DNA from: Nocardia veterana NBRC 100344
Lineage (GTDB): Bacteria; Actinomycetota; Actinomycetes; Mycobacteriales; Mycobacteriaceae
Direction of reading: 5' to 3'
DNA length: 64,000 bases
NCBI RefSeq assembly: GCF_000308855.1
Contig: NZ_BAGM01000004.1
Location: forward strand, 62,001 to 126,000
Shown here: one piece after another, positions 6,921 through 43,618 of the stretch
Layout: each line of letters begins with the position of its first letter
Position numbering within the stretch: the first letter of the stretch is position 1
The notes under the pieces: model-generated
Databases searched by the model: none
Told to the model about the DNA's origin: nothing
Seen by the model: the letters and a program-made list of their open reading frames with translations, nothing else
Made by a program: the position numbers and the translations under genes

Positions 6921-6974
6921 TGCGCTGAACCTCGTTTCCTGTGCGGCGGTCGGTAGCGAAAATGTGACAGCGAC

Positions 6975-7778: not shown

Positions 7779-7816
7779 CCACAGGGGTCGGCCGGGCAGT
7801 ACCAGGAGTTTCACCG

Positions 7817-8569: not shown

Positions 8570-8597
8570 CGGACTTGCGAATGCCGAGCACGTCACC

Positions 8598-8840: not shown

Positions 8841-8862
8841 CCGACGCAGAGTAGTCCGGGCA

Positions 8863-10269: not shown

Positions 10270-10282
10270 CCATCCTCCTCGT

Positions 10283-10297
10283 GCGAACGATGTTCGC
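10283..10297. promoter_or_regulatory. Putative TetR operator O1
   Basis: GCGAAC-GAT-GTTCGC is a perfect 6-3-6 inverted repeat lying 14 bases upstream of the MFS start codon. The same arms recur at 10319-10333, with centres 36 bp apart. The divergent tetR gene is the probable source of the repressor. Confidence 0.7.
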
Positions 10298-10313
10298 GTT
10301 AGGTCAACCTAAC
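10298..10313. promoter_or_regulatory. Perfect 16-bp palindrome between two TetR-like operators
   Basis: GTTAGGT-CA-ACCTAAC abuts O1 and lies 5 bp from O2. Its arms are unrelated to those of the flanking operators, so it may bind a second regulator. TTAGG/CCTAA ends recall iron-box half-sites, but the spacing is 5 bp shorter than the 19-bp IdeR box. Confidence 0.5.
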
Positions 10314-10318
10314 TCGAG

Positions 10319-10333
10319 GCGAACATTGTTCGC
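10319..10333. promoter_or_regulatory. Putative TetR operator O2
   Basis: GCGAAC-ATT-GTTCGC repeats the perfect arms of the site at 10283-10297. It is 40 bases upstream of the tetR ATG at 10374, so occupancy would be expected to autoregulate tetR as well as silence the exporter. Confidence 0.7.
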
Positions 10334-10373
10334 AAGCGGATGATTAGGCTCGAGGAAAGGGACAGGAGGCCGG

Positions 10374-19043: not shown

Positions 19044-19871
19044 GTGACGCGTCTGCCGAAGCCGAAGATGGTGGCCACCGATGTCGATGGCACGCTGCTC
19101 GACGAGTGGGAACGGGTGACCCCGCGGACCCGCACCGCGGTGGCGGCGCTGATCGCCGACGGGGTGCCGTTCGTGCTGGCCACCGGCCGCCCGCCACGCT
19201 GGATCGATCCGGTGATCGAGGGCCTCGGATTTCCGCCGCTGTGCGTCTGCGGCAACGGCGCGGTCATCTACGACAGCGCCGCCGACCGGATCCTGCACAC
19301 CACCACCCTGGATGTGGCGAGCTTGGAATGGATCGCCGAACTGGCCGAGCGGGTGCTGCCCGGCTGTGGACTGGCCGCCGAGCGGGTCGGACGCAGCGCC
19401 CACGACGCCGCCACGCCGCAGTTCGTGAGCTCGCCGGAATACGAGCATGCCTGGCTCAATCCCGACGACACGCAGGTCTCCCGGACCGAGGTCATCGCGG
19501 CGCCGGCGATCAAGATGTTGATCCGGCTGCGCGGGGCGGCCAGCGCCGATATGCGCGCGGCACTCGAGCCGGAACTCGGTGGGCGCGCCGACATCACCTA
19601 TTCCACCAACAACGGCCTGATCGAGCTGTCCGCGCCCGGCATCACGAAGGCCGCCGGCCTCACCGTCGTCGCCCAGCGGCTCGGCGTGGAACCGGCGGCC
19701 ATGCTCGCCTTCGGCGATATGCCCAACGACGTGCCGATGCTGCGGATGGCCGGCCACGGCGTCGCGATGGGTAATGCACATCCGGAAGCGCAGGCCGCCG
19801 CCGACGAGATCACGACTTCCAATTCCGAGGACGGCGTGGCGCGGGTGCTCGAGCGCTGGTGGGACAGCTGA
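19044..19871 (+). CDS. HAD-superfamily phosphatase, Cof type
   Basis: This 275-residue protein has all HAD motifs: ATDVDGTLLD with the nucleophile Asp near residue 12, LATGRPPRW (motif II), a Lys in ITKAAGL, and FGDMPNDVPML (motif IV). The CGNGAVIYD cap junction identifies the Cof/type IIB group, which dephosphorylates sugar phosphates or nucleotides. The GTG start lacks a clear Shine-Dalgarno. It corresponds in position and type to Rv3813c of M. tuberculosis (recalled). It converges on the PGRP gene over a hairpin. Confidence 0.9.
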   Translation: MTRLPKPKMVATDVDGTLLDEWERVTPRTRTAVAALIADGVPFVLATGRPPRWIDPVIEGLGFPPLCVCGNGAVIYDSAADRILHTTTLDVASLEWIAELAERVLPGCGLAAERVGRSAHDAATPQFVSSPEYEHAWLNPDDTQVSRTEVIAAPAIKMLIRLRGAASADMRAALEPELGGRADITYSTNNGLIELSAPGITKAAGLTVVAQRLGVEPAAMLAFGDMPNDVPMLRMAGHGVAMGNAHPEAQAAADEITTSNSEDGVARVLERWWDS

Positions 19872-19883
19872 GTTCGGTGCGAG

Positions 19884-19914
19884 CGCCCGCGCTGCCGAGA
19901 TAGCTGCGCGGGCG
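19884..19914. terminator. Hairpin between convergent HAD and PGRP genes
   Basis: CGCCCGCGC (19884-19892) pairs perfectly with GCGCGGGCG (19906-19914) around a 13-base loop. It lies 12 bases after the HAD stop and 16 after the minus-strand PGRP stop, so it could serve both directions. There is no U-tract. Confidence 0.55.
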
Positions 19915-19930
19915 TCCGCACGGGTTCGCC

Positions 19931-28999: not shown

Positions 29000-31027
29000 A
29001 TGACCGCACAAGTGACACTCGAGGATATGAGCACCGACACGCGCGCGAAATCCCTGCTGCAGCGCATCATCCTGCCCCGCCCGGGCGAACCGTTGGATGT
29101 GCGGACGCTGTACCTGGAGGAATCGACGACGAATGCGCGTCGGGCGCACGCTCCCACCCGCACCTCGCTGTCGATCGGCGCCGAATCCGAGGTGTCGTTC
29201 TGCACCTACTTCAACGCCGTGCCGGCGAGTTACTGGCGGCGCTGGACCATTCTGGACTCGGTGGTGCTGCGGCTGGAACTGTCCGGCCACGGCCGGGTCG
29301 ACGTCTACCGATCGAAGGCCGACGGGTCCCGAATTCACGTGCGCGGCAACGAATTCGCCACGACCACGGCGAGCCGTGAATCATTCACCGCACCGGTCGA
29401 CACCACCACCGTCGAATTCGAGGTCGATCTGGGCCCGTTCGAGGACGGCGGCTGGATCTGGTTCGACATCACGACCGACACCGCGGTCGAATTGCGCAGT
29501 GGCGGCTGGTACGCGCCGATCGAGGCGCCGGGTGAGGGCAGTATCGCCGTCGGTATGCCCACCTTCAACCGGCCCACCGATTGTGTGAACACGCTGACGG
29601 CGCTGGGTTCGGACCCGCTGGTGCTGGAAAAGATCAAGGCTGTGATCATTCCCGATCAGGGCAACCGCAAGGCCGTCGACGAGCCCGGATTCGCCGAGGC
29701 CGCAGCGGTTCTCGGGGATCGGCTCGCCATTCACGATCAGCCGAATCTCGGTGGTTCCGGCGGTTACAGCCGGGTCATGTACGAGGCGCTGAAAACGACC
29801 GACGCGCAGTACATCGTCTATATGGACGACGATATCGAGATCGAGCCGGACTGCATTCTGCGTGCTCTGGCCTTCGCTCGGTTCTCGCGCACTCCCACCC
29901 TGGTCGGTGGCCAGATGCTGAATCTGCAGGAGCGTTCGCATCTGCACACCATGGGTGAGGTGGTCGATCGCGGTATCTGGATGTGGACCGCGGCCCCGAA
30001 CGTCGAATACGACCACGATTTCTCGAAGTATCCGCTGCGCGACCGGGACAACTCGAAGTTGCTGCACCGCCGGATCGATGTCGATTTCAACGGCTGGTGG
30101 ACCTGTGTCATCCCGCGCGTGGTGGCCGAGGAGATCGGTCAGCCGTTGCCGCTGTTCCTGAAATGGGACGACGTCGAATACGGTCTGCGTGCCCGCGCGG
30201 CCGGATATCCGACCGTCACCCTGCCCGGTGCGGCGGTCTGGCATATGGCGTGGAGCGACAAGGACGACGCCATCGACTGGCAGGCCTATTTCCACCTGCG
30301 CAACCGTCTGGTGGTCGCGGCGCTGCATCTCGGCAACGACGGCCGTCCGATGATCGTCAACACCGTCAAGGCGACGCTGAAACACCTGCTGTGCCTGGAG
30401 TATTCGACGGTCGCGATTCAGAATCAGGCGATTCGCGACTTCCTGGCCGGGCCGGACAAACTGTTCGAGCTGCTGCCGACAGCGCTCGGCCAGGTGGCCG
30501 CCCTGCGCAAGGAGTACTCCGACGCGGTGATCGTCGGTTCCTCGACCGAGCTGCCGCTGCCCAGCGGCGCCGATGTCGGCGCGGTCGGCGAACCGCCGAA
30601 TCCGCTGGCGAAGATTGTCCGGCTCGGCAAGGGCGTACTGCACAATCTGCGCCCGGCCAAGACCGAACACCACGAGCGCCCGCAATTGAACGTTCCCACC
30701 CTCGACGCGCGTTGGTTCCTGCTCTCGCAGGTCGACGGGGTTACCGTGACCACAGCCGACGGGCGTGGCGTGGTGTATCGCAAGCGGGATCCGCGCCAGG
30801 CCCGGGAGCTGTTCGCCGAGGCGATGCGGCTGCGCCGGGAACTGGCCGCCCGGTTCCCGGAGATGCGCGACCGGTACCGTGCCGCGCACGCTCGCTTGAC
30901 CAGCACCGCGGCCTGGGAGAACGCATTCGGGATCGCCGGGAGCGACGGGACCGGAGGCGGCAGCGCGCGTAACCACGGAGGGACCCGCGGACGGCGCATC
31001 GAACACGACAATAGCGAGGACAAATGA
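29000..31027 (+). CDS. glfT2: Galactofuranosyltransferase GlfT2
   Basis: This 675-residue GT2 enzyme builds the bulk of the galactan by alternating beta-1,5 and beta-1,6 Galf addition on the decaprenyl-linked primer at the inner membrane face. Visible features: an N-terminal beta-barrel region to about residue 170, the DDD metal motif in YMDDDIEIEPD (Asp276-278), WDDVEYGLRARAAG (Asp390/391) and the catalytic-type His in AVWHMAWSDKDD (~415), then the C-terminal helical domain. The start is ATG 29000; an in-frame ATG at 29030 is possible. The stop overlaps the PAP2 start by 4 bases. Confidence 0.97.
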   Translation: MTAQVTLEDMSTDTRAKSLLQRIILPRPGEPLDVRTLYLEESTTNARRAHAPTRTSLSIGAESEVSFCTYFNAVPASYWRRWTILDSVVLRLELSGHGRVDVYRSKADGSRIHVRGNEFATTTASRESFTAPVDTTTVEFEVDLGPFEDGGWIWFDITTDTAVELRSGGWYAPIEAPGEGSIAVGMPTFNRPTDCVNTLTALGSDPLVLEKIKAVIIPDQGNRKAVDEPGFAEAAAVLGDRLAIHDQPNLGGSGGYSRVMYEALKTTDAQYIVYMDDDIEIEPDCILRALAFARFSRTPTLVGGQMLNLQERSHLHTMGEVVDRGIWMWTAAPNVEYDHDFSKYPLRDRDNSKLLHRRIDVDFNGWWTCVIPRVVAEEIGQPLPLFLKWDDVEYGLRARAAGYPTVTLPGAAVWHMAWSDKDDAIDWQAYFHLRNRLVVAALHLGNDGRPMIVNTVKATLKHLLCLEYSTVAIQNQAIRDFLAGPDKLFELLPTALGQVAALRKEYSDAVIVGSSTELPLPSGADVGAVGEPPNPLAKIVRLGKGVLHNLRPAKTEHHERPQLNVPTLDARWFLLSQVDGVTVTTADGRGVVYRKRDPRQARELFAEAMRLRRELAARFPEMRDRYRAAHARLTSTAAWENAFGIAGSDGTGGGSARNHGGTRGRRIEHDNSEDK

Positions 31028-31623
31028 CCGCACCCGTCTCCGCCGATTCGGCCGGCACTCCGCACCTGCAGGTGGTGGCCGACCCCGAGGTGGCCAAGCC
31101 CGCGGAGGTCCGGATCCTCAATGCGGTTCAGGGCACGATCGGTACGCCGCCGGTGATCAAGGCGGCGCGCGGGATGTCGCATTTCGGTGAGCACGCGCTC
31201 GGCTGGATGGCGATCGGCGCGGCCGGCGCTCTGGTCGACAAGTCCCGGCGCCGACAGTGGGCCGGTGTCGCGGTCGGCGCCTTCGGCGCGCATGCCGCCT
31301 CCGTGGTCATCAAGCGCATCGTCCGCCGCCCGCGTCCGCACGATCCGTCGGTGCAGGTCAACGTGTCGACTCCGAGCAAACTCAGCTTCCCGTCCTCGCA
31401 CGCCACCTCCACGACGGCGGCGGCCGTGTTGCTCGGGAAGTTGACCGGGCTACCCTTGCCTGCGGTGCTCGTGCCGCCGATGCTGCTCTCCCGGGTCGTT
31501 CTGGGAGTGCACTATCCCTCCGACGTGCTCGCCGGATCCGCTCTGGGTGCGGCATCCGCCGCAGCCGTGCTAGCCGCCGAAAAGAGATTCGCCAGTGACC
31601 GCACAGGAAAGAACCCTCGCTGA
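31024..31623 (+). CDS. PAP2-family phosphatase, probable decaprenyl-phosphoryl-5-phosphoribose phosphatase
   Basis: This 199-residue protein has the three phosphatidic-acid-phosphatase motifs: KRIVRRPRPHD (KX6RP), FPSSHAT (PSxH) and SRVVLGVHYPSDVLAG (SRX5HX3D). Its place between glfT2 and ubiA equals that of Rv3807c in M. tuberculosis. The proposed role there is removing the 5-phosphate from decaprenyl-phosphoryl-phosphoribose, before epimerisation to the arabinose donor. It overlaps glfT2 by 4 bases and lies one base from the preferred ubiA start. It is the least certain enzyme of the pathway by experiment, but the family assignment is firm. Confidence 0.92.
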   Translation: MTAPVSADSAGTPHLQVVADPEVAKPAEVRILNAVQGTIGTPPVIKAARGMSHFGEHALGWMAIGAAGALVDKSRRRQWAGVAVGAFGAHAASVVIKRIVRRPRPHDPSVQVNVSTPSKLSFPSSHATSTTAAAVLLGKLTGLPLPAVLVPPMLLSRVVLGVHYPSDVLAGSALGAASAAAVLAAEKRFASDRTGKNPR

Positions 31624-31624
31624 T

Positions 31625-32572
31625 ATGAGTGAAGAGCCGACCGGCACCGACCTCGACGAAGCCGTCCTGAAGGGTCCGCCGAAGACGCTGGCGGGCGGGA
31701 TCGTCAAGGCCGTGCGGCCGCGGCAGTGGGTGAAGAACGTCCTCGTGCTGGCCGCCCCGCTGGCGGCGGGCAAGGATGCGGTCACCGGCGCCTACGTCCT
31801 GGCGGATGCGACCGTGGTCGCGCATATCGCGATCGCGTTCGTCGTGTTCTGTATGGCGGCCTCGGGCATCTACCTGGTCAACGACGCGCTCGACGTCGAG
31901 GCCGACCGGGCCCACCCGACCAAGCGGTTCCGGCCCATCGCCGCCGGTGTGGTGCCGGTGAATCTGGCGTATTCGCTCTCGGCGGTGCTGCTGGTCGGCT
32001 CGATCGCGGTGTCGTTCCTGGCGTCCTGGCATCTGGCCGTCGTGATGGCGGTCTACATCGGCATTCAGTTGGCCTACTGCTTCGGCCTGAAACATCAAGC
32101 GGTGCTCGACATCTGCATCGTGTCCTCCGGCTTCCTGCTGCGCGCGGTCGCCGGTGGCGCGGCCGCCGATATCCGGCTCTCGCAGTGGTTCCTGCTGATC
32201 ATGGCCTTCGGCTCGCTGTTCATGGCGGCGGGTAAGCGCTACGCGGAGTTGAAGATCGCGCTCGACACCGGCGCCAAGATCCGCAAGTCGCTGCAGTACT
32301 ACACGCCCACCTACCTGCGCTTCATCTGGACCCTGTCGGCCACCGCGGTGGTGGTCTTCTACGGACTGTGGGCCTTCGAAACCGATCACAAGCACACCCA
32401 GTGGTTCGCGATCTCGATGATTCCGTTTACCATCGCAGTCCTGCGCTACGCGGTCGACGTCGATGGCGGCGAGGCCGGGGAACCCGAAGAGATCGCGCTG
32501 GGGGATCGCATTTTGCAGCTCCTGGCCATCGCCTGGATCGGAGCGGTAGGTGTCGCTGTCTATCTCACCTGA
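31625..32572 (+). CDS. ubiA: UbiA-family decaprenyl-phosphate phosphoribosyltransferase (DPPR synthase)
   Basis: This polytopic prenyltransferase-fold protein is 315 residues from ATG 31625. That start is preferred over GTG 31595 because the N-terminus MSEEPTG resembles the known mycobacterial start and AGGAAAG lies upstream. It joins phosphoribosyl pyrophosphate to decaprenyl phosphate, the first committed step to the arabinan donor DPA. Active-site Asp-rich motifs are visible: YLVNDALDVEADRAHPTKRF near residue 80 and FGSLFMAAGKRYAEL near 200. It overlaps the aftB reading frame by 23 bases if aftB begins at 32550. Confidence 0.96.
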   Translation: MSEEPTGTDLDEAVLKGPPKTLAGGIVKAVRPRQWVKNVLVLAAPLAAGKDAVTGAYVLADATVVAHIAIAFVVFCMAASGIYLVNDALDVEADRAHPTKRFRPIAAGVVPVNLAYSLSAVLLVGSIAVSFLASWHLAVVMAVYIGIQLAYCFGLKHQAVLDICIVSSGFLLRAVAGGAAADIRLSQWFLLIMAFGSLFMAAGKRYAELKIALDTGAKIRKSLQYYTPTYLRFIWTLSATAVVVFYGLWAFETDHKHTQWFAISMIPFTIAVLRYAVDVDGGEAGEPEEIALGDRILQLLAIAWIGAVGVAVYLT

Positions 32573-34538
32573 CGAGATGCTGGTAGCGGGAGACGAACAC
32601 GGGGAGGGGGCAGACGCGGAGTCGTCCGATCGCGCACTACGGCGCGACGGCGGTGCCGCGCGCCGCTTTTCGGTGCTCTCCCGCACGGTATTCGTCGGTG
32701 GGGTGATCGTCACCGTCGCGTTGTTCGGTATCGGCGCCTGGCAACGGCGCTGGATCGCCGACGACGGCCTGATCGTTCTGCGCACCGTGCGCAATCTGCT
32801 CGCGGGCAACGGCCCGGTCTTCAACGCGGGCGAGCGGGTGGAGACCAATACCAGCGCCGCCTGGACCTATGTCATCTGGTTCTTCAGCTGGATCAGCAAC
32901 GCCCGGCTGGAGTACGTCGGTCTGACTGTCGCACTGACCCTTTCCCTCCTGGCGATCGTCTTCGCCATGGTCGGATCGGCGCGGCTGTGGCGCCCGTTCA
33001 CCACCGGCGCGCCCACGCTGCTGCTGCCGGCCGGTGCGCTGGTCTATATCGCCGTTCCGCCCGCTCGTGACTACGCCACCTCCGGCCTGGAGAACTGTCT
33101 GGTCATCTTCTGGCTCGGCGTGCTGTGGTGGTTGCTGCTGCGCTGGAGCCAGGACGAGAAACCGCGTCTGGCAAACCTTCTCGTGGCCGGCTTCTGGGCG
33201 GGACTGTGCTGGGTCATCCGCCCGGAGATGACCGTGATCGGCGGTCTGGCCCTGGTCGTGCTGTTCTTCTCGCCGATGCCGCGGACTCGGTTGCGGCCGA
33301 TGCTGATTCGCGCGCTGCTGGTGGTGGTCGGCGGCGCGGTGTCGGTCGGCTATCAGATCTGGCGCATGGGCTATTACGGCCTGCCCTATCCGAACACTGC
33401 CGTGGCCAAGGAGGCCGGCGGGGCGAAATGGGGTCAGGGCCTGAAATATCTGTGGGATCTGGTCGGCCCGTACTACCTGTGGATTCCGCTGCTGGTGCTG
33501 ATCGTGGTGGCGGCAGTGCTGATCCGGAGTCGTCGCGGTGGCGCGGCTGCCGAGACCACCGGCGAGGCCCGGCGATCGGCGCGCGTGCAGCAGTGGCTGC
33601 GTTCCCCGGCCGCGGTCGTCACCGTGCTGGTCGGTGGCGGTCTGCTGCTGGTCGTCTTCAATATGCGGGTCGGCGGCGACTTCATGCACGGCCGCATGCT
33701 GCTGCCCCAGCTGTTCTGCCTGATGCTGCCGGTGTCGGTGCTGCCGGTGCGGCTGCCGGCCCGCGGCGCCGGCCGGTCGGGCTGGCTGCGCTGGTCGTTC
33801 GCCGTGCCGGCACTCGCCTGGGTCGGCACCATCGGCTGGGCGCTGTTCGCGGCGAACACCACCGCGAATACCTCGGGCGGTCAGATCAGCGCCTCCGGCA
33901 TCGTCGACGAACGGGTCTACTACGTGCTCAACAGTGGGCACGACCATCCGGTTCTGGCCGAGGACTATCTGGACTATCCGCGGATGCGGGCGATGCTGCA
34001 GGACATCGCCGCGACCCCGAACGGCGGTCTGCTGATCAATTCGCCGTCGTTCATGATGTGGTACGTCGCGCCGCCGCCGCTGCCGATTCCGCCCGGCGGT
34101 TACGGGCATACGGTGTACTTCCTCAATCTGGGCATGACCAGCATGAACGTGCCGCTCAGCGTGCGGGTCATCGACCAGGAGGGGTTGGCGTATCCGCTGG
34201 CCGCCCACACCGACCGGCTGGCCGACGGCCGGATCGGTCACGACAAGAATCTGTATCCGGACTGGGTCATCGTCGACACCGGTATGGTCGACCAGCATCC
34301 GTGGATGCCGTGGTTCCTCGATCAGCGTTGGGTGCAGCAGGCCCGGACGGCGCTGTCGTGTCCGGCCACGCAGGATCTGCTGGCGTCCTATCGGGCGCCG
34401 CTGACCTGGGATCGCTTCAAACACAACATCATCCAGTCGTTGCATTTCGCGAAGTACCGCATCGACCGGGTGCCCAAGTACGAAATCCAGCGTTGCCACC
34501 TGGTGGACCCGACGGCGCCGCTCCCGGCTCCGAACTAG
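32550..34538 (+). CDS. aftB: Terminal beta-(1,2)-arabinofuranosyltransferase AftB
   Basis: This 662-residue GT-C membrane enzyme adds the terminal beta-1,2 arabinofuranose that carries mycolic acids, using decaprenyl-phosphoryl-arabinose outside the membrane. The family signature WQRRWIADDGLIVLRTVRN, with the catalytic Asp pair, opens the first extracytoplasmic loop near residue 65. Many helices and a C-terminal ectodomain follow. The start is taken at GTG 32550 behind GGAGCGG; ATG 32577 is in frame and would avoid overlap with ubiA. The N-terminus is about 50 residues longer than the mycobacterial form I recall. Confidence 0.95.
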   Translation: MSLSISPDEMLVAGDEHGEGADAESSDRALRRDGGAARRFSVLSRTVFVGGVIVTVALFGIGAWQRRWIADDGLIVLRTVRNLLAGNGPVFNAGERVETNTSAAWTYVIWFFSWISNARLEYVGLTVALTLSLLAIVFAMVGSARLWRPFTTGAPTLLLPAGALVYIAVPPARDYATSGLENCLVIFWLGVLWWLLLRWSQDEKPRLANLLVAGFWAGLCWVIRPEMTVIGGLALVVLFFSPMPRTRLRPMLIRALLVVVGGAVSVGYQIWRMGYYGLPYPNTAVAKEAGGAKWGQGLKYLWDLVGPYYLWIPLLVLIVVAAVLIRSRRGGAAAETTGEARRSARVQQWLRSPAAVVTVLVGGGLLLVVFNMRVGGDFMHGRMLLPQLFCLMLPVSVLPVRLPARGAGRSGWLRWSFAVPALAWVGTIGWALFAANTTANTSGGQISASGIVDERVYYVLNSGHDHPVLAEDYLDYPRMRAMLQDIAATPNGGLLINSPSFMMWYVAPPPLPIPPGGYGHTVYFLNLGMTSMNVPLSVRVIDQEGLAYPLAAHTDRLADGRIGHDKNLYPDWVIVDTGMVDQHPWMPWFLDQRWVQQARTALSCPATQDLLASYRAPLTWDRFKHNIIQSLHFAKYRIDRVPKYEIQRCHLVDPTAPLPAPN

Positions 34539-34591
34539 TCCGCCCCGGGCAACGAATCAGTCGTGTATTAGTCTCGGTTTGATAACGCCGA

Positions 34592-34611
34592 CGTATCGAT
34601 TTCACGATACG
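34592..34611. promoter_or_regulatory. Inverted repeat upstream of the first mycolyltransferase gene
   Basis: CGTATCG-ATTTCA-CGATACG has 7-bp perfect arms. It lies 53 bases after the aftB stop and 110 bases before the next start. It could be a weak terminator for aftB or an operator. Confidence 0.4.
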
Positions 34612-34617
34612 CTCGGT

Positions 34618-34631
34618 GACGGACGTCCGTC
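34618..34631. promoter_or_regulatory. Perfect 14-bp palindrome upstream of the first mycolyltransferase gene
   Basis: GACGGACGTCCGTC is fully self-complementary with no spacer, which suits a dimeric regulator better than an RNA hairpin. It is 6 bases downstream of the 34592 inverted repeat. Confidence 0.4.
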
Positions 34632-34721
34632 GGGGGCGCATCGTCGTATGCGCACGGGTGATCATTCGCAGAGAAGAAACGCGGTCGGACGGGCCGCACT
34701 ACGGGAAAGGCCGGACAGGGT

Positions 34722-35828
34722 ATGCGAGGCGTGACTGTGCGATGGGTGCAGCAGAGACGTCGGAGACGGTCGCAGCAACCGTCGGCGCCTCAGCGAGCCG
34801 GATGGCTCAAGCGGTCGGCGGTGGGCGTGGCATTGGCGACGTTGCTGCCGTTCGGGGTGTCGGTGGCAGAGGCCGGACATGCGGCCGCCGCATTCAACCC
34901 GTCGGGTATCGATTTCTGGGTCGATTCGTCCATGGGACCGATCAAGTCCCGCATCTTCCGGGCGGCCGACGGCAACACCAGCCGGGTCGTGTACGCCCTG
35001 GACGGTATGCGCGCTCGCGGTGACCTCAACGGCTGGGAGATCGAAACCAACATCATCCCGGCGCTGCAGGGCGCCAACATCAACGTCGTGATGCCGGTCG
35101 GCGGCCCGTCGAGCTTCTACGCCGACTGGAACGCGCCGAGCAACTTCTTCGGCATCGACACCGCGTCGGCCGGCTCCGCCGGGTCGTCGACAGGTTCGGC
35201 GATGACCGGTTCCTCGAACTACAACGAGACCCTGGGCAAGGCCAACACCTACAAGTGGGAAACCTTCCTGACCCAGGACCTGCCGAACGCGCTCAGCTCG
35301 CGGATGGGCTTCAGCGCCCATCGCAACGGGGTCTTCGGTCTGTCGATGGGCGGTAGCGCCGCGCTGACCCTGGCGGCGTACCACCCGGAGCAGTTCAGCT
35401 ACGCGGGTTCCTTCTCCGGTTACCTGAACATCTCCGCGCCGGGTATGCGGGAGGCCATGCGTGTCGCGATGCTCAGCGCCGGTGGGTACAACATCGACGC
35501 GATGGCGCCGCCGTGGGGCCCGCAGTGGTTGCGGATCGATCCGTTCGTCTTCGCGCCGCGGTTGAAGGCCAACAACACCCGCCTGTGGGTTGCGGCCGGT
35601 AGCGGACTGCCCGCGCCGTCGGACGCGGTCGCTCCGCTCGACATCATCCAGGGCTCGCCGCTGGAAGCGTTGGCGCTGGCCAACACCCGCGCCTTCCAGG
35701 TCCGCATGATGACCCTGGGCGCCGGCAACGTCACCTACGACTTCCCGAATGTGGGTGTGCACAACTGGCACAACTGGGAGGCCGAGGTCTACCGAATGCT
35801 GCCGGATCTGTCGGCCAATATCGGCTGA
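34722..35828 (+). CDS. Antigen-85-type mycolyltransferase/esterase, copy 1
   Basis: This 368-residue secreted alpha/beta hydrolase has a long basic n-region (RRRRRSQQ) and a hydrophobic segment ending near AEAGHAAAA that forms the signal peptide. The mature part shows the antigen 85 layout: VVYALDGMRA, NVVMPVGGPSSFYADW, KWETFLTQDLPNAL, the nucleophile Ser208 in GLSMGGSAAL, a Glu in SPLEALALANTRAF and the His in VGVHNWHNW. The family transfers mycolates between trehalose and arabinogalactan. The usual GTHSW is GVHNW here, as in copy 2 (GVHDW). An extra Ser/Gly loop (residues ~150-165) is unique to this copy. A strong hairpin follows. Confidence 0.92.
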   Translation: MRGVTVRWVQQRRRRRSQQPSAPQRAGWLKRSAVGVALATLLPFGVSVAEAGHAAAAFNPSGIDFWVDSSMGPIKSRIFRAADGNTSRVVYALDGMRARGDLNGWEIETNIIPALQGANINVVMPVGGPSSFYADWNAPSNFFGIDTASAGSAGSSTGSAMTGSSNYNETLGKANTYKWETFLTQDLPNALSSRMGFSAHRNGVFGLSMGGSAALTLAAYHPEQFSYAGSFSGYLNISAPGMREAMRVAMLSAGGYNIDAMAPPWGPQWLRIDPFVFAPRLKANNTRLWVAAGSGLPAPSDAVAPLDIIQGSPLEALALANTRAFQVRMMTLGAGNVTYDFPNVGVHNWHNWEAEVYRMLPDLSANIG

Positions 35829-36187
35829 TCTCAGCGCGATTCGCGGCCCCGCGTCGGTCATCCGGCGCGGGGCCGTGGCATTTCCGGACCCGGCCGAAGT
35901 GATTGCCGAATGCTCGAGCGCCGGGCGTTTGCTGTGTCCCTCTGGGATGGGTTGCCGGAAATCGACCCCGCGCGCCCTTGTGTCGCAGATCACCTTTCGG
36001 AATATTTCCGCGTCGAAACTATTGGCTGCCCCGCCGGATCACCGATACTCGGTGGGTATCGAAGAACCTGCAGTACAGCGGCGAGTGTCTGGCGCCGAAA
36101 CGCTTTGTCGGGGTTGTCCGGAATGAGTGGCGGCCGCGCGGTGTGGGATCCGGTGCGGCCGTCGCTTCAGGTGAAAGGTCGAGTTCG
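35829..36187. other. 359-bp intergenic region between mycolyltransferase copies 1 and 2
   Basis: It holds a terminator-like hairpin at 35844-35875 and otherwise no supported gene. The frame of copy 2 stays open back to 35903, but the upstream codons give a composition unlike the mature proteins and no signal peptide. The AT-richer stretch at about 35990-36060 may carry the promoter of copy 2. Confidence 0.5.
35844..35875 (+). terminator. Strong hairpin after mycolyltransferase copy 1
   Basis: CGGCCCCGCG-T-CGG pairs with CCG-G-CGCGGGGCCG, giving a 14-bp stem (one T-G wobble) and a TCAT loop. It starts 16 bases after the stop codon. Only a weak T-run follows, as is usual in these GC-rich genomes. 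Confidence 0.75.
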
Positions 36188-37282
36188 ATGCGATTTGCGC
36201 GCAGGAAGCCGTTGCTCGGAAGTAGGTCCGGTACCGGGCCCGGTTCGTGGCTCAGGCGCTCGGCGCTGGGTGTGGCATTGGCACTGTTGCTGCCGCTCGG
36301 AGTTTCGGTTGCCGGCAGCGGGGCGAGCGCCTCGGCCGCATTCGATCCGTCGGGCTTCGACTTCTGGGTGGATTCTCCGGTCATGGGCCCGGTCAAGTCC
36401 CGCATTTTCCGGGCCAAGGACGGCAACACCGACCGCGTCGTCTACGCCCTCGACGGGATGCGGGCCCCGCAGACCCTCAACGGCTGGGAGATCGAGACGA
36501 ATGTCGCCCAGGTACTCACCGACTGGAATATCAATGTGGTGATGCCGGTCGGCGGCCAATCCAGTTTCTACGCGGACTGGAATGCGCCCAGCTCGTTCTT
36601 CGGCATCCCGCCGAGCAATTTCGGCGCCTTCAACAGCGGATCCGGTGCGACCGAGACATTCCTGGGCGGTCCGGGCAAGGACTATCGCTACGACTGGGAG
36701 ACCTTCCTGACCGTCCAGCTGCGTAATGCCCTGCGGGATCGGCTCGGCTTCCGGGCCTCCCGCAACGGCGCGTTCGGATTGTCGATGGGCGGCAGCGCCG
36801 CGCTGACCCTGGCGGCGTATCACCCGGACCAGTTCAGCTTCGCCGGTTCCTTCTCCGGATATCTGAACATTTCCGCACCCGGTATGCGCGAGGCGATTCG
36901 GCTCGCGATGATCGACGCGGGCGGTTACAACGTCGATTCGATGGCGCCCCCGTGGGGCCCGCAGTGGCTGCGGATGGATCCGTTCGTCTTCGCCCCGCGT
37001 TTGATCGCCAACAACACCCGCCTGTGGATCGCGGCCGGTAGTGGGGTGCCCTCGCAGCAGGACCTGGGGTTGCCGCTGCCGGCCGCCGCCGACCACATCG
37101 TCCGCGGCGCTCCGCTGGAAGCGCTGGCATTGGCCAATACCCGGGCTTTCCAGGTGCGGATGATGACCCTCGGCGCGAGCAACATCGTGTATTCGTTCCC
37201 GAATGTCGGTGTGCACGACTGGTTCAACTGGCAGGACGAGGCCTACCGGATGATCCCCGACCTTTCGGCCAATATCGGCTGA
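36188..37282 (+). CDS. Antigen-85-type mycolyltransferase/esterase, copy 2
   Basis: The protein is 364 residues from ATG 36188, chosen because a signal peptide begins there (basic RFARRK, then ALGVALALLLPLGVSVAG) and GAAAGG lies upstream. It is the closest paralogue of copy 1: both share FDPSG/FNPSG-type starts, GLSMGGSAALTLAAYHP, YLNISAPGMREA and the ends MMTLGA and DLSANIG. Nucleophile Ser199; Glu in APLEALALANTRAF; His in VGVHDWFNW. The region between NVVMPVGG and the nucleophile carries a different insertion from copy 1. It should act outside the membrane as a trehalose-dependent mycolyltransferase. Confidence 0.92.
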   Translation: MRFARRKPLLGSRSGTGPGSWLRRSALGVALALLLPLGVSVAGSGASASAAFDPSGFDFWVDSPVMGPVKSRIFRAKDGNTDRVVYALDGMRAPQTLNGWEIETNVAQVLTDWNINVVMPVGGQSSFYADWNAPSSFFGIPPSNFGAFNSGSGATETFLGGPGKDYRYDWETFLTVQLRNALRDRLGFRASRNGAFGLSMGGSAALTLAAYHPDQFSFAGSFSGYLNISAPGMREAIRLAMIDAGGYNVDSMAPPWGPQWLRMDPFVFAPRLIANNTRLWIAAGSGVPSQQDLGLPLPAAADHIVRGAPLEALALANTRAFQVRMMTLGASNIVYSFPNVGVHDWFNWQDEAYRMIPDLSANIG

Positions 37283-37664
37283 ACAGCACCCGTCCGCCGC
37301 CGTACGAAGAGGCAACCGCCCGCGAATCCGCAGGGGCAGTTGCCTCTTCGGCGTATCCGGCCGAATTTTCCCGGCCCAGTAGTTGATTCGTCATTTCGGA
37401 CTGTGATTTCCCGGCGAACGCGATAGGGTCACTGCACGTTTACGAATGGTGCGCGGGCGGATTTCAGCCACCCGCAGGGGTCCGTGTTGCCAACCAATGG
37501 GCGGTCGAATATCGTCCAGCGAGCGCAAGTGCGACCGTTCGTAGCCGCGACGTCACTCGTATCGAAAGGTCGGGTTCGATATGGGTGCTGATCCCGCCGT
37601 CGTAGACGGTGGTGGTCGCGGCGCGGCGACAACAGCAGACAGCAGCAGAAAGAGAGCAGTATCC
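37283..37664. other. 382-bp intergenic region between mycolyltransferase copies 2 and 3
   Basis: It contains the hairpin at 37305-37350 and a presumed promoter for copy 3. The frame of copy 3 is open from 37581 but lacks a signal peptide before 37665. The purine-rich GAAAGAGAGCAG just before 37665 is the likely ribosome-binding region. Nothing else is recognised. Confidence 0.5.
37305..37350 (+). terminator. Hairpin after mycolyltransferase copy 2
   Basis: CGAAGAGGCAAC (37305-37316) and GTTGCCTCTTCG (37339-37350) are perfectly complementary over 12 bp. The 22-base loop is GC-rich. CCGAATTTT follows 11 bases later. It lies 22 bases after the stop codon. Confidence 0.75.
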
Positions 37665-38717
37665 ATGCGTTTCGGCAGGTCGGCCGCGCCGGTTTCGCAT
37701 TCGGCGCTCGCGCCGGAAAGAGCCCCGCAGGGGCGGCGAGGTGCTCGGCGTAGTTGGCGCACACGACTTCTCGCTGTGGGTGCCGCGCTGGCGCTACCGG
37801 TCGCGGCGGGCATCATGGCCCCGTCCGCCATCGCCGCACCGATTCACGCGCCCGTGCACCGCACCCCCGCCGGTGGGTACGACGAACTGATGGTTCCGTC
37901 GAGCATGGGCCCGGTGAAGGTTCAGGTGCAGTGGGCGCGCAACGGCGGTAACGGCGCGCTGCTGTTGCTGGACGGTCTGCGGGCCCGCGACGACCGCAAC
38001 GCCTGGTCGTTCGAGACCAACGCGCAGGAGATGTTCGGCAACGACAACGTCACCCTGGTGATGCCGGTGGGTGGCCAGTCCAGCTGGTACGCCGACTGGC
38101 AGGGGCCGAGCAACACCAACGGTCAGAAGTTCACCTACAAGTGGGAGACCTTCCTGACCAAGGAGCTCCCGGATTTCCTTTCCAACTACGGTGTTTCGCG
38201 GACCAACTACGCGGTGGCCGGCCTGTCGATGAGTGGTCCGGCGGCGCTGCGCCTGGCGGCGTTCCACCGCGATCAGTTCAAGTACGCGGCCTCCTTCTCC
38301 GGTCCGCTGAACTGGAACGCGCCGGGTATGCGCGAGGCGATTCGCGTGATGATGCTCGACGCCGGCCGCTTCAACGTCGACTCGATGGCCGCGCCGTGGA
38401 GCCCGCAGTGGCTGCGTTCGGACCCGGTGGTCTTCGCGCCGCAGCTGCGCGGCCTGCCGATGTTCATCTCGTCGGCCAGCGGTCTGCCGGGTGCCTACGA
38501 CCACCCGAACTCCCCGGTCGGCCTGTTCAACACCGGTAACGCGATGGGCATCGAGCTGATCTCGATGGTCAGCACCCGCTCCTTCCAGGCGCGGCTGAAC
38601 TCGCTGGGCATTCCGGCGGCCTACGACTTCCCGCCGACCGGTACCCACTCCTGGCACTACTGGCAGGACGAGCTGGCCAAGGCGCGTCCGGGCATCCTGT
38701 CCGCTCTGAACGCCTGA
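37665..38717 (+). CDS. Antigen-85-type mycolyltransferase/esterase, copy 3
   Basis: The protein is 350 residues from ATG 37665. An unusually long basic lead precedes the hydrophobic core (LLAVGAALALPVAAGIMAPS) and a signal cleavage region near AIAAPIHA. It is the most antigen-85-like copy: YDELMVPSSMGPVKVQVQW, LLLDGLRARDD, VMPVGGQSSWYADW, KWETFLTKELPDFL, nucleophile Ser188 in GLSMSGPAAL and the canonical GTHSWHYW. It lacks the central insertion of copies 1 and 2. It probably provides the main trehalose dimycolate and wall mycolylation activity, which is inference from conservation only. Confidence 0.93.
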   Translation: MRFGRSAAPVSHSALAPERAPQGRRGARRSWRTRLLAVGAALALPVAAGIMAPSAIAAPIHAPVHRTPAGGYDELMVPSSMGPVKVQVQWARNGGNGALLLLDGLRARDDRNAWSFETNAQEMFGNDNVTLVMPVGGQSSWYADWQGPSNTNGQKFTYKWETFLTKELPDFLSNYGVSRTNYAVAGLSMSGPAALRLAAFHRDQFKYAASFSGPLNWNAPGMREAIRVMMLDAGRFNVDSMAAPWSPQWLRSDPVVFAPQLRGLPMFISSASGLPGAYDHPNSPVGLFNTGNAMGIELISMVSTRSFQARLNSLGIPAAYDFPPTGTHSWHYWQDELAKARPGILSALNA

Positions 38718-38742
38718 TCACCGGCCATAACGCAACCGACAT

Positions 38743-38775
38743 CGGCGCCGCGCAGATCTGATCTGCGCGGCGCCG
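38743..38775 (+). terminator. Very stable hairpin after mycolyltransferase copy 3
   Basis: CGGCGCCGCGCAGATC and GATCTGCGCGGCGCCG are perfect 16-base complements with one base between them, giving a stem of at least 13 bp. Outer CGCAAC and GTTGCG arms (38731-38736 and about 38780-38785) can extend it. Confidence 0.8.
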
Positions 38776-38881
38776 GTTCGTTGCGGGACGGCCCTGCTTG
38801 CCTTGTGCGCTGCCATTTCTCAGGTTTGCTGTCCGCGCGTCCTACCGCCTCGAGCGGCCCGCGCGCGGTACAAACACTCCT

Positions 38882-40759
38882 GTGGCAGGTGTGGTTTCCG
38901 GTTTCCGGGGGACAGTTCGTCGCGGCCGCTGGGGGCGGCGGCGACTGACGATGCTGGCCGCGCTGGTGGTTGTGCCGTTGGCTTCCGGGATCGCCGTCGC
39001 ACCCGCGCCCGTCACCGCACAACCCGCGGCCGTGCCGGCGCCCAGCGCCGCGACCGTGCAGAAGGTCGTGTGGCTGTCCGACCGCCGCGTCTCGCTGTGG
39101 GTGAATTCGCCGTCGATGGGCGCACCCGTGCAGGTGCAGCTGTTGCTGGCGCGGGACTGGAATGCCCGCCCGGACGCGCGATTCCCGTTGCTGTTCATGC
39201 TCGACGGGCTGCGGGCCCAGGACGACGAGAGCGGCTGGACCAAGGACGCCGGCGCCGTCGATTTCTACGCCGACAAGAACGTCACCGTGGTACTGCCGAT
39301 CGGCGGCCAGTCGAGTTTCTACTCCGACTGGATGCAGCAGGACAACGGCAAGAACTACAAGTGGGAAACCTTCCTGACCAAGGAGCTGCCGCCGCTGCTG
39401 GAGAACCAGTGGCGGGCCACCGATGTCCGTGGGGTGGAAGGGCTTTCGATGGGCGGTACGGCCGCCATGTTCCTGGCCGGGCGCAACCCCGGCTGGGTGC
39501 GGTACGCGGCCTCGTATTCCGGCTTCCTGACCACGACCAGCGTCGGCATGCCGCAGGCCATCATGTTCGCGATGCGCGATGCCGGCGGATTCGATGCCAA
39601 TGCCATGTGGGGCCCGCCCACCAATCCCGAATGGGCCGACCACGATCCGTATCAGCTCGCGCCCAAACTGAAGGGCATCAGCCTGTACGTCTCGGCCGGT
39701 AGCGGCACCACCGGCGCCTACGACAAACCGTCCGACATTCCGGGGATCAGCACCAATTACGCGGGTATGGGCCTCGAGATGCTGTCCCGGCTGACCAGCC
39801 AGAATTTCGTCGACAAGTTGAACAAGCTGTCGATCCCGGTGCAGGCCAATTACCGTCCCTCCGGCACCCATTCGTGGCCGTACTGGGATTTCGAGATGCG
39901 TCAGTCCTGGCCGCAGGCGGCCGCCGCGCTCGGGGTGGAGGCCGACAAGCCGGCATGCTCGGCCGGTGGCGCGATCGCCGCGGTGGCTCAGGTCGACAAA
40001 TGGCTGGGCGACTGTGTGACCGGTGAATATCAGGTCACCAACGGGATCGCCCAGGACTTCAAGGGCGGCCGGGTGTTCTGGTCCCAGGCCACCGGCGCGC
40101 ACGCGGTGGCGGGCATGATCGGCGGCACCTATCAGGCGACGGTCGGTCCGGGCGGCCCGCTCGGTCTGCCCACCGCCGCCGAGCAGGCCCTTCCGGACGG
40201 TCAGGGCCGCTTCCAGAGCTTCGAGGGCGGCTCGGTCTACTGGTCGCCGCAGACGGGCGCGCAGGTGGTGCGCGGGGCGATCCTGGCCGAATGGGGTCGC
40301 GAGGGCTTCGAACGCGGTCCGGCGGGCTATCCGGTCGGACCGGAAGCCAAGACGCCGGACAAGAACGGAATCGTGCAGGGCTTCCAGGGCGGCCCGATGT
40401 ACTTCAGCGACAAGACCGGCGCCCATCGGGTGCAGGGCCTGATCCTCGGCAAGTACGCACAGCTGGGCTTCGAGAACAGCTGGCTCGGTTTCCCGGCCGC
40501 CGAGGAGCAGCCCACCAAGGATCTGGGCCGCTACAGCAAGTTCGAGGGCGGCAACATCTATTGGAGTCCGCTCTCCGGCGCCTGGGCGGTGCGCAACGGG
40601 CCGATCATGGACGCCTGGGGACAGCAGGGCTTCGAGAACGGGCGGCTCGGCTATCCGATCAGCGACGAGTTCCCGGTTCCCGGCGGGGTGCAGCAGAACT
40701 TCCAGACCGGATTCATCGTGGTCCGCGACGGCAAACCGCCGGAGGTCCACGGGGCATAG
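38882..40759 (+). CDS. Antigen-85-type mycolyltransferase with C-terminal LGFP repeats, copy 4
   Basis: The protein is 625 residues if begun at GTG 38882; the frame stays open to a TTG at 38798 and an ATG at 38951 would still leave a signal peptide. After the signal (MLAALVVVPLASGIAVAPAP) comes an esterase domain to about residue 355: LPIGGQSSFYSDW, KWETFLTKELPPLL, Ser189 in GLSMGGTAAMF, GLEMLSRLTSQNF and GTHSWPYW. Residues ~370-615 are about five LGFP repeats (GPLGLPTAAEQ, GPAGYPVGPE, SWLGFPAAEEQ, GRLGYPISDEF). The same fusion occurs in corynebacterial PS1/cMytA-type enzymes. The repeats probably tether it to the wall. Confidence 0.92.
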   Translation: MAGVVSGFRGTVRRGRWGRRRLTMLAALVVVPLASGIAVAPAPVTAQPAAVPAPSAATVQKVVWLSDRRVSLWVNSPSMGAPVQVQLLLARDWNARPDARFPLLFMLDGLRAQDDESGWTKDAGAVDFYADKNVTVVLPIGGQSSFYSDWMQQDNGKNYKWETFLTKELPPLLENQWRATDVRGVEGLSMGGTAAMFLAGRNPGWVRYAASYSGFLTTTSVGMPQAIMFAMRDAGGFDANAMWGPPTNPEWADHDPYQLAPKLKGISLYVSAGSGTTGAYDKPSDIPGISTNYAGMGLEMLSRLTSQNFVDKLNKLSIPVQANYRPSGTHSWPYWDFEMRQSWPQAAAALGVEADKPACSAGGAIAAVAQVDKWLGDCVTGEYQVTNGIAQDFKGGRVFWSQATGAHAVAGMIGGTYQATVGPGGPLGLPTAAEQALPDGQGRFQSFEGGSVYWSPQTGAQVVRGAILAEWGREGFERGPAGYPVGPEAKTPDKNGIVQGFQGGPMYFSDKTGAHRVQGLILGKYAQLGFENSWLGFPAAEEQPTKDLGRYSKFEGGNIYWSPLSGAWAVRNGPIMDAWGQQGFENGRLGYPISDEFPVPGGVQQNFQTGFIVVRDGKPPEVHGA

Positions 40760-40904
40760 GCCGATAAATCACCTTTAAGCGGTTGGTGAGGGTTCCGGCC
40801 ACGGGAGCCCGGTCCGCGCGGGTTGCCGTTAACCTGGAGCCCGACCTGCTAGGCCTTGTGAAAGAAGTTCTAGCCCTCTGCGAACTAGATCGAGGACACG
40901 ATTC

Positions 40905-41456
40905 ATGCTTCGGACCCGTCCGGTCGGAGAACGGTACGTCGCCGGTGGCAAGGTTGCCGGCATCGTGGTGGCCTTGGCCGCCACCGGTTTACTCGCCGCC
41001 TGTGGCGGTAACGATTCGACGGCGTCGAGCACGCCGACCCTGAAGCCTTCGACCACGACCGCCGCGGCGTCGTCGGCGCAGTCGGCCCCCGGTAGCGCGC
41101 AGCAGCCCGCCCCCGAACCCTCCACGGAGCAGGCGCCCGCGCCGACCAGCGTGAACGAGCGCCCGGAGCCGGCGCAGCCGAGTGCGGCCGACCATCCGCC
41201 GCTGTCGGACAAGGATCAGGCCTACCTGGACGAGCTGAAGAAGCGCGGGGTGACTCCCTCGAGCCCGGACATCGCCCTCACCGCCGCCAACTACGTCTGC
41301 CAGAGCAAGGCCAGCGGTGCCTCCGATCAGGAGGTCAAGACCTTCGTCAACGCGATGGCCGGCACCGATCCTGGCTTCGACCCGCAGAAGATGTCCGTCG
41401 AGCAGGCGGGTCAGATCTATATCGACGTCGCGACCCAGACCTACTGCAACAAGTGA
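40905..41456 (+). CDS. DUF732-type lipoprotein coupled to culp6
   Basis: This 183-residue protein has a signal peptide and lipobox LAAC (IVVALAATGLLAACGG). A Ser/Thr/Pro/Ala/Gln-rich linker of about 65 residues leads to a C-terminal ~90-residue helical domain with two Cys (NYVCQSKA and TYCNK), resembling DUF732. The gene overlaps culp6 as GTGA, so the two proteins are probably made in fixed ratio. DUF732 has no established biochemical role; a helper of the adjacent exported lipase is plausible only from context. Confidence 0.8.
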   Translation: MLRTRPVGERYVAGGKVAGIVVALAATGLLAACGGNDSTASSTPTLKPSTTTAAASSAQSAPGSAQQPAPEPSTEQAPAPTSVNERPEPAQPSAADHPPLSDKDQAYLDELKKRGVTPSSPDIALTAANYVCQSKASGASDQEVKTFVNAMAGTDPGFDPQKMSVEQAGQIYIDVATQTYCNK

Positions 41457-42445: not shown

Positions 42446-42583
42446 CGGCCCACCCGGCGGCGGTCGTCGTGCTTCCCGAGGAAAAAGTAAACCCGAGGGT
42501 CACTCAGATTTTGGTGAAGGCTGTAAAGTGCAGCGATGATCGCGCCACAGCGCGCACATCCGCACAGCCAGGAGCAAAGGTTC

Positions 42584-43618
42584 ATGACAGAAGCCGCCGC
42601 CGTCAGCGCGACCAGCGGTGCCGAAATGACAGCGCTGGGCGTTCCGGCGCGCGCGTTCCGATTCGCTGCTGCCGGTGAGGGGAATCAGCAGGAGGGCGGT
42701 GCGCGGAAATTCGTCAAACTCGCGCAGCAGGCCGAGGAATACGGCTACGACTCCTTCGCGATCCCCGATCATCTCGGACCGCAGGTCGGCCCGATCGCCG
42801 CGCTGGGCGCACTGGCCGTCGCCACCGAGCGCATCCGGATCGGAACCTCGGTGCTGGCCAACGGTTTCCGGCATCCGGTGGTGCTCGCGAAGGATGCGGC
42901 CACCATCGATGTGCTGTCGCGCGGCCGGCTGGAACTCGGCGTCGGCGCGGGCTGGATCAAGAGTGAATTCGAGGCCGCCGGCCTGCCCTACGAATCGCCG
43001 GGCGTGCGGTTGGAGAAGCTCGACGAGGCGCTGACCATTCTCGATGTGCTGCTGCGTGGGCAGGAATGCCATTTCGAGGGCAAGCACTACCAGGTGCGCG
43101 GCATCAAGGGCACCCCGCGGCCGCGGCAGGGTCCGCGTCCGCCGCTGGTGACCGGCGGCGGCGGACCGAAGATGTTGCGGCTGGCGGCCAAACACGCCGA
43201 CATCATCTCGGTGGTCCCCCGCACCACCAAGGAGGGTAAGGGGCTGCTGTCGGGTATCACCCTCGAAAAGACCATCGAGAAGGTGAAGCTGATCAAGGAG
43301 GCCGCCGGGGACCGGTTCGCCGATATCGAACTGAACTGGACCATCACCGCCGTCGTGATCACCGACGATCGCGAGCGCACCGCCGAGATGGCGTTGGCGG
43401 CCCTTGACAAGGGACTGCATCCGGACCTCGAGGTCGACGTGCAGCTGTCGGTGGAAGACATCCTGAATTCGCCCTATGTGGCCATCGGCACATTCGAGGA
43501 GATCGCCGAGCAGATCCGTAACGTGCGGCGATTGACATCGATGTCCTATGTCGGAGTGTTTCCGACCCAGATGGATGCTTTCGCACCGGTGATCCCGCTG
43601 CTGCGAGAGGAGCCGTAG
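42584..43618 (+). CDS. LLM-class, probably F420-dependent, oxidoreductase
   Basis: The protein is 344 residues from ATG 42584, preferred over ATG 42536 because AGGAGCAAAGG lies just upstream. The luciferase-like TIM barrel is evident: YDSFAIPDHLG, IGTSVLANGFRHPV, SRGRLELGVGAGW near residue 122, GGGGPKMLRLAAKHADI. It resembles TIGR03621-type F420-dependent enzymes. M. tuberculosis has no such gene here as far as I recall. An AT-richer region with TGTAAAGT at 42523-42530 suggests its own promoter. The substrate is unknown; proximity to culp6 and fadD32 hints at an envelope lipid. Confidence 0.85.
   Translation: MTEAAAVSATSGAEMTALGVPARAFRFAAAGEGNQQEGGARKFVKLAQQAEEYGYDSFAIPDHLGPQVGPIAALGALAVATERIRIGTSVLANGFRHPVVLAKDAATIDVLSRGRLELGVGAGWIKSEFEAAGLPYESPGVRLEKLDEALTILDVLLRGQECHFEGKHYQVRGIKGTPRPRQGPRPPLVTGGGGPKMLRLAAKHADIISVVPRTTKEGKGLLSGITLEKTIEKVKLIKEAAGDRFADIELNWTITAVVITDDRERTAEMALAALDKGLHPDLEVDVQLSVEDILNSPYVAIGTFEEIAEQIRNVRRLTSMSYVGVFPTQMDAFAPVIPLLREEP

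Follow-up and report, generated by a model that had tools for sequence, protein, structure and literature searches.

Why does Nocardia keep four or more mycolyltransferase genes in one row, and are they read as one message or one by one? In mycolate bacteria the outer barrier is closed by mycolyltransferases, enzymes that also serve as drug targets. In the stretch of DNA analysed here, 64,000 nucleotides (nt) of Nocardia veterana NBRC 100344 (contig NZ_BAGM01000004.1, positions 62,001 to 126,000; hereafter the window, with a G+C content of about 67%), four PF00756 genes lie in tandem on the + strand at 34722-40759, as a first-pass annotation had claimed; aftB flanks them on one side and DUF732-culp6 on the other. 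The reading preferred here, to which we give a probability of about 0.8, is that they form a genus-wide cell-wall mycolyltransferase locus with separately transcribed copies and imperfect terminators after copies 1-3. The four genes are:

34722..35828, + strand: copy 1, mycolyltransferase of the first-position type (GVHNW, Ser/Gly loop; PF00756 E 4.4e-37; Ag85C as best PDB match; triad intact)
36188..37282, + strand: copy 2, mycolyltransferase of the second-position type (GVHDW, Ser/Gly loop; PF00756 E 7.6e-36; c2 clade)
37665..38717, + strand: copy 3, Ag85-like mycolyltransferase (GTHSW, without the long loop; PF00756; Ag85C as best PDB match, E 4.4e-56; c3 clade)
38882..40759, + strand: copy 4, PS1/CmytA-type mycolyltransferase with five C-terminal LGFP repeats (PF00756 and PF08310; best start GTG 38882)

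The catalytic Ser, Glu and His (S208, E315 and H347 in copy 1 numbering) are invariant in the alignment of the four products, as are D94, R97 and W349 (same numbering), which we take to be the Asp, Arg and Trp of the trehalose pocket. The annotation had read these triads correctly, along with the His motifs (GVHNW, GVHDW, GTHSW and GTHSW in copies 1 to 4) and the different loop insertions of copies 1 and 2, which are 70% identical. With all four triads intact, an MPT51-like inactive copy is rejected for this array, in agreement with the annotation. A structural model of copy 1 has the Ag85 fold (mean predicted local distance difference test, pLDDT, of 82), the best match being Ag85C (3hrh) with a template modelling score of 0.81 by query and 0.92 by target; copies 2 and 3 are assigned by sequence, and copy 3 is nearest to Ag85C in the PDB search. 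The label 'antigen-85-type', given earlier to all four, suits copies 1-3 and fails for copy 4, whose LGFP domain had been overlooked: this product aligns with PS1/CmytA (PDB 6sx4) at E 1.9e-156 over residues 68-646 of the 653-amino-acid (aa) open reading frame (ORF) from 38798, and its C-terminus contains five PF08310 (LGFP) stretches. Judged from sequence, the four enzymes would most likely all transfer mycolate from trehalose monomycolate.

Copy 1-like genes occur in all 59 Nocardia genomes searched, the window's own included. Fifty-five arrays were fetched, making 56 with the window; those of G004, G032 and G053 were left out because of contig ends. A c2-clade copy is present in 56/56 arrays, and the first copy belongs to class c1 in 34 and to class c12x in 22. 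Among the 43 arrays in which both aftB and culp6 were seen, 30 have four copies and 13 have five; L071 and L083, which the counting rule gave as three-copy arrays, are artefacts in which the copy 1 frame runs back into aftB, and are counted as four. The 13 arrays not fully seen show two copies (L062, L063), three (L095), four (L069), five (L065, L096), six (L051), seven (L075) or eight (L060, L072, L073, L076, L105), and in the arrays of six to eight copies c3 or the c3-c4 couplet is repeated. Across the 56 arrays, the classification gave no c3-clade copy for L062, L063 and L096, and none of type c4 for these three and L095; L062 and L095 end at a contig end, and L096 ends with the fetched stretch, within a c3-like frame. 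In the same L096, about 4.7 kilobases (kb) (3858-8569, oriented coordinates) separates copy 2 from the next mycolyltransferase.

Outside Nocardia, rows of two or three copies are found at 37 of the 40 loci compared. In 36 of them an LGFP copy closes the row; L129 has three copies but lacks LGFP, L130 has a single copy at a distance of about 9 kb, and L111 and L139 have none. The array of four or more copies is a feature of the genus Nocardia, which has three Ag85-type enzymes and one whose domain is of the wall-binding type; the family's other genera have one or two besides the latter.

In a tree of 359 sequences, from which L096_5 was excluded as too short, 57 Nocardia type 4 copies group with 37 from other genera (support 0.98), and 60 Nocardia copies join 17 relatives in the copy 3 clade (0.99). 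Copies 1 and 2 belong to a group supported at 0.997, whose members are 121 array copies, L002 and a pair from another genus. The c2 clade has a support of 0.94, the first-position copies do not form one clade, and inner nodes are weak (0.49-0.88). Copy 4 is the orthologue of Corynebacterium glutamicum PS1/CmytA. Because c2 and first-position types occur in all 56 arrays, the duplication that separated copies 1 and 2 is, judged by array content, no younger than the sampled genus; the tree and this distribution rule out a recent, species-level duplication, and the description of the two copies as recent paralogues is withdrawn. Exceptions to the triad among the 359 sequences are L075_4 and L093_3 (both fragments), L075_6 (Ser to Ala), L076_6 (His to Arg) and L129_3 (MPT51-like). 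Where c3 is repeated, a catalytic residue of the first PS1-type copy is gone in two species (copy 6 of L075 and of L076), parallel to MPT51, and this first copy has a short frame of 454-488 aa in 7/7 such arrays (L051, L060, L072, L073, L075, L076 and L105).

Loop length, His motif and LGFP repeats go largely with copy type. The segments concerned in the window are:

35130..35249, + strand: Ser/Gly/Ala/Thr-rich loop of copy 1, 40 aa, predicted to be disordered (pLDDT below 50 at model residues 95-118)
36581..36688, + strand: Ser/Gly-rich loop of copy 2, 36 aa, in line with c2 loop lengths
40004..40735, + strand: LGFP-repeat domain of copy 4 (alignment with PDB 6swz, PS1; residues 403-646 of the ORF from 38798)

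Loop length was taken in the Nocardia arrays as the stretch between the DW and WETF motifs, copies in which the pattern could not be measured (2/43 c1, 4/56 c2 and 3/20 of the extra copies labelled y) being left out. Loops of at least 20 aa are found in 41/41 measured c1 copies (34-50 aa), 22/22 c12x copies (38-43 aa) and 52/52 c2 copies (27-37 aa), versus 0/60 c3 copies (11-12 aa in 60/60) and 0/57 c4 copies (8 aa in 57/57); the 17 measured y copies have loops of 12-37 aa, two of them at least 20 aa long. Ser, Gly, Ala and Thr make up 51-62% of the loop in the long-loop classes, and outside Nocardia a comparable long Ser/Gly loop is seen in 1/80 copies (L125_2). GVHNW occurs in 32/43 c1 and 22/24 c12x sequences (the latter class including two from another genus), the c2 copies (n=57) have mainly GIHAW (25), GLHAW (11) and GVHDW (10), and GTHSW occurs in 43/60 c3 and 42/57 c4 sequences. 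An array with such conserved, type-specific features is a clean set for asking why so many copies are kept.

Inverted repeats were found at the three places where strong hairpins had been noted, and they recur at the same gene ends throughout the genus:

35844..35875, + strand: terminator-like hairpin after copy 1 (14+14 nt, 93% complementary; covariation)
37305..37350, + strand: terminator-like hairpin after copy 2 (17+17 nt, 94% complementary)
38743..38775, + strand: terminator-like hairpin after copy 3 (16+16 nt, 100% complementary)

No inverted repeat (minimum 8 nt) was reported in the window after aftB, copy 4, culp6 or the LLM-like gene, and with looser scoring the region past copy 4 has a stem that scores 8.0. 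The stem score is at least 11 at 10 of the window's 41 crude gene ends and at least 14 at five, three of which are supplied by copies 1-3, in excess of what chance would give. For the genus, the 80 nt past each stop codon were scored, which excluded copies lying too near the edge of the fetched sequence to supply the full 80 nt. Scores of at least 11 are reached after 29/43 c1, 15/22 c12x, 40/56 c2 and 42/60 c3 copies, compared with 1/52 c4 copies, 1/38 culp6 genes, 1/20 extra y copies, 1.7% of 777 coding 80-mers and 0.6% of 181 shuffles. They are also reached after 15/44 DUF732 genes (in the window, this stretch falls within the coding sequence of culp6) and, in other genera, after 30/50 non-LGFP copies.

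The stems begin at a median of 13-20 nt past the stop codons, and their sequences vary between species and copies. In the 8 nt past 126 stems, T makes up 38% and A 8%, and on the upstream side A makes up 24%; past 155 coding stems (score at least 10), T makes up 19%. Genus-wide, the tail pattern is that of a directional, imperfect U-tail. The copy 1 hairpin covaries among 17 of 25 clade members: 95.3% of cells are paired and 11/15 pairs have changed on both sides, giving a covariation score of 0.541, where shuffles score 0.205 and slid controls no more than 0.125, with the structure derived from the same alignment on which it was tested. The score is reached by 0/500 shuffles and the count of pairs changed on both sides by 6/500. 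Mycobacterial terminators mostly lack a poly-U tail and lie within 50 base pairs (bp) of the stop codon, and NusG stimulates termination where U-tails are poor, according to a recent review (PMC12288462). The hairpins after copies 1-3 would be, at best, imperfect terminators.

Conserved promoter-like blocks precede copies 1, 3 and 4, and a weaker candidate precedes copy 2:

34578..34589, + strand: conserved box TTTGATAACGCC upstream of the copy 1 -10 element (alignment of 43 sequences)
34608..34613, + strand: -10 element TACGCT of the putative copy 1 promoter (TANNNT in 43/43 aligned)
36044..36049, + strand: candidate copy 2 -10 element GATACT, tentative (conserved in part of the genus, 15 hits)
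37385..37664, + strand: conserved copy 3 promoter and leader region (nhmmer, 54/56 arrays)
37487..37515, + strand: putative copy 3 promoter, with -35 TTGCCA at 37487-37492, 17 nt, and -10 TATCGT at 37510-37515 (scan hit; TANNNT in 53/53)
38869..38874, + strand: -10-like element TACAAA of copy 4, 7 nt ahead of the GTG start

Models of these blocks were searched upstream of the copies in the 56 arrays at E up to 1 and at E up to 1e-3; their seed was six close relatives of the window's own group, so the match counts lean towards that group. The copy 1 block gives 43 hits in 41 arrays upstream of first-position copies (26 arrays at 1e-3), the copy 2 block 15 hits in 15 arrays (10 at 1e-3) and the copy 4 block 43 hits in 37 arrays (30 at 1e-3). 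The copy 3 block is found in 54/56 arrays at both thresholds, the others being L055 and L063; copy 3 itself lies beyond the sequence of L062 and is partial in L096. TANNNT, with its middle three bases free, is present at the -10 position in 43/43 aligned copy 1 sequences and in all 53 ungapped copy 3 sequences of 54, against a background of about 1% per position. The -35 element of copy 3 is TTGCNN in most sequences, the promoter scan called one site, this one, versus 0.9 expected, and the copy 3 model has one further weak match (E 0.053) ahead of the window's copy 2.

Around the putative copy 1 promoter (34578-34660), the box TTTGATAACGCC and inverted repeats (CGTATCG..CGATACG; GACGGACGTCCGTC) form a possible operator. 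The copy 3 leader, about 145 nt from the predicted start to the ATG, may contain an additional regulatory element. Rfam gave five matches over 34400-41100 (best E 0.0018), none above the gathering threshold, and a known RNA family is rejected for this region.

At copy 4, TAC or TAG followed by AA or GA is present in 41/43 aligned sequences, and the start codon column holds GTG in 42 and ATG in one. This start is in frame with the copy 4 ORF in 40/43; in the other three, copy 4 lies outside the available sequence. A -10-like element 7 nt ahead of a conserved start points to leaderless translation, and copy 4 is likely translated in this way from GTG 38882.

These observations suggest the following scheme. 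The locus runs from aftB through two loop-bearing Ag85-type enzymes, one plain Ag85-type enzyme and one PS1/CmytA-type enzyme with LGFP repeats to DUF732, culp6 and, later, fadD32. The enzymes would move mycolic acid from trehalose monomycolate to arabinogalactan or to trehalose monomycolate via an acyl-Ser intermediate, and the LGFP domain probably holds copy 4 to the wall. Copies 1, 3 and 4, and probably copy 2, would each have a promoter of their own; the hairpins would act as imperfect intrinsic terminators, yielding mainly single-gene messages and some read-through, and copy 4, which lacks such a hairpin, may run on into DUF732-culp6. The comparison, with promoter-like blocks before copies 1, 3 and 4 and recurrent hairpins, supports the earlier suggestion of separate control rather than one operon.

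Several results weigh against this scheme. The tails of the window's three hairpins (CATTTCCG, GCGTATCC and TCGTTGCG) contain few T, none of the three is followed by at least five T in 8 nt, and a scan for canonical terminators called two sites versus 4.3 expected, none of them at these hairpins, where a canonical U-tract terminator is rejected. One paper cited in the review of mycobacterial terminators (PMC12288462) reportedly states in its title that the U-tract is required. Stems are not exclusive to mycolyltransferase genes, with scores of at least 11 after aftB in 16/49 loci and, in other genera, after 11/36 LGFP copies, and the extra y copies mostly have no hairpin ahead of c3. The alignment of the copy 3 hairpin (19/19 clade sequences) folds into only five consensus pairs, since the arms differ in length, and the copy 1 structure shares its alignment with its test. 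Besides the lean of the promoter models, many of their distant matches are weak, and neither the model search nor an iterative search yielded a clear promoter for copy 2; in four rounds the latter recruited 44 of 48 upstream regions (of the 56 arrays) and a second, different motif emerged, so that drift is likely. In L063, about 6.6 kb on the 3' side of copy 2 (oriented 3893-10501; 10.5 kb fetched) contains no copy 3, copy 4, culp6 or N run, and the array seems broken past copy 2 by rearrangement or misassembly. The poor tails in the window, the lack of a canonical terminator call and the weak copy 2 promoter make partial read-through likely.

A single transcript from aftB or copy 1, in which the hairpins would be RNA-stability elements or processing sites that tune segment levels, would fit the poor tails and the lack of calls at them, the shared strand of every gene and the 19/20 extra y copies without a strong hairpin. 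It is improbable in view of the TANNNT elements conserved ahead of copies 1 and 3, the conserved start and -10-like element at copy 4, the directional T-rich tails over the 126 stems, and the gaps of 183, 359 and 382 nt before copies 1, 2 and 3. Covariation fits DNA palindromes as well as RNA stems, and all 16 bp of the copy 3 stem match; the hairpins might on this ground be operators at the DNA level, palindromes for a regulator instead of RNA structures. Such a role is very improbable, however, because the stems keep their short distance past the stop codons, their sequences vary among species and copies, and downstream T is enriched more than upstream A. Separately transcribed copies with imperfect terminators are preferred, and the remaining alternative concerns the enzymes themselves. 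Redundant dosage copies acting on the same substrates, as the intact triads in all copies would allow, are somewhat unlikely: type order is kept across arrays, loop length and LGFP state are nearly always kept, and the His motifs are type-specific with some variation. A division of labour among the copies would fit these features.

By analogy with protein mycoloylation, the loop of copies 1 and 2 might be a lipid tether, mycoloylated by the enzyme itself or by a Cmt1-type enzyme, that anchors these copies in the outer membrane, with copy 4 anchored to the wall via LGFP and the isoforms, each under its own control, working on opposite faces. This idea is speculative and on balance doubtful. The loop is a flexible Ser/Gly/Ala-rich segment by its composition in copies 1 and 2 and its predicted disorder in copy 1, as at O-mycoloylation sites. 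A study of C. glutamicum places putative O-mycoloylation sites in flexible regions rich in Ser, Gly and Ala, including on three mycoloyltransferases; Cmt1 has three putative sites within a disordered surface loop (PMC11066868). The N. veterana genome has 20 PF00756 matches, of which 18 have E below 1e-20 and count as strong: the four array copies, one copy 2-type gene elsewhere and 13 dispersed genes. In a PDB comparison of three of the 13, L013 and L018 are closest to Cmt1 and L006 scores about equally with PS1 and Cmt1; Cmt1-like genes are thus present in the same genome as the array. The loop offers a direct way to ask whether protein mycoloylation reaches Nocardia.

The antigen 85 complex of Mycobacterium (FbpA/B/C) shares its fold (Ag85C 3hrh versus copy 1) and its Ser/Glu/His triad with this array, and its locus presumably also sits between aftB and culp6-fadD32. 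Nocardia differs in the loops of copies 1 and 2, which measure 40 and 36 aa against 12 aa in copy 3, and in the GVHNW and GVHDW of these two copies in place of GTHSW. The inactive MPT51 (FbpD) type is absent from the window's array, unlike L129, in which the mycolyltransferases lie between aftB and culp6-fadD32 and include an MPT51-type copy (L129_3) with lost catalytic residues. Copy 4 resembles C. glutamicum mycoloyltransferase A (PS1, CmytA, csp1; 6sx4) over nearly its full length, five LGFP repeats included; the LGFP domain of that organism reportedly binds the wall, and the leaderless GTG start of the PS1-type copy is predicted for Nocardia only. The protein O-mycoloyltransferase Cmt1/CmytC (PDB 4h18) belongs to the same superfamily, copies 1 and 3 being nearer to Ag85 and copy 4 nearer to PS1.

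Rows of mycolyltransferases in Nocardia are already in published genomes. The available text of one account lists N. farcinica nfa1810-1830 and N. seriolae UTF1 ORF-144 to 148 and 150 as mycolyltransferase genes, giving genes and similarities without mention, in that text, of loops, the LGFP domain or transcription signals (PMC5336288); the ORF numbers suggest adjacency and the same kind of array. Mycolyltransferase genes that are close in number also appear in a table of PMC6436429. In the available part of an N. brasiliensis small RNA paper a mycolyltransferase is merely a predicted target, the main text of an N. cyriacigeorgica genome paper has no mention of the searched terms, and neither the loop nor conserved transcription signals of this array are described in the portions of the open-licence literature searched.

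Copy 1 is 91-93% identical to the copies of N. nova, N. elegans, N. africana and their neighbours, which places the window in the N. nova group. The genes around the array are:

29000-31027: glfT2-domain protein
31595-32572: decaprenyl-phosphate phosphoribosyltransferase (553 bits versus a cut-off of 474)
32550-34538: aftB-like arabinofuranosyltransferase (721 bits, under the 1050-bit cut-off)
3' of copy 4, before culp6: DUF732 protein
after DUF732: culp6-like cutinase (367 bits, under its 570-bit cut-off)
42536-43618: LLM-like gene, recognised by eye
one gene beyond culp6: fadD32 (1216 bits, over the cut-off of 975)

Elsewhere in the window, a strong inverted repeat at 19871-19931 lies between two convergent crude gene calls and is likely a two-way terminator.

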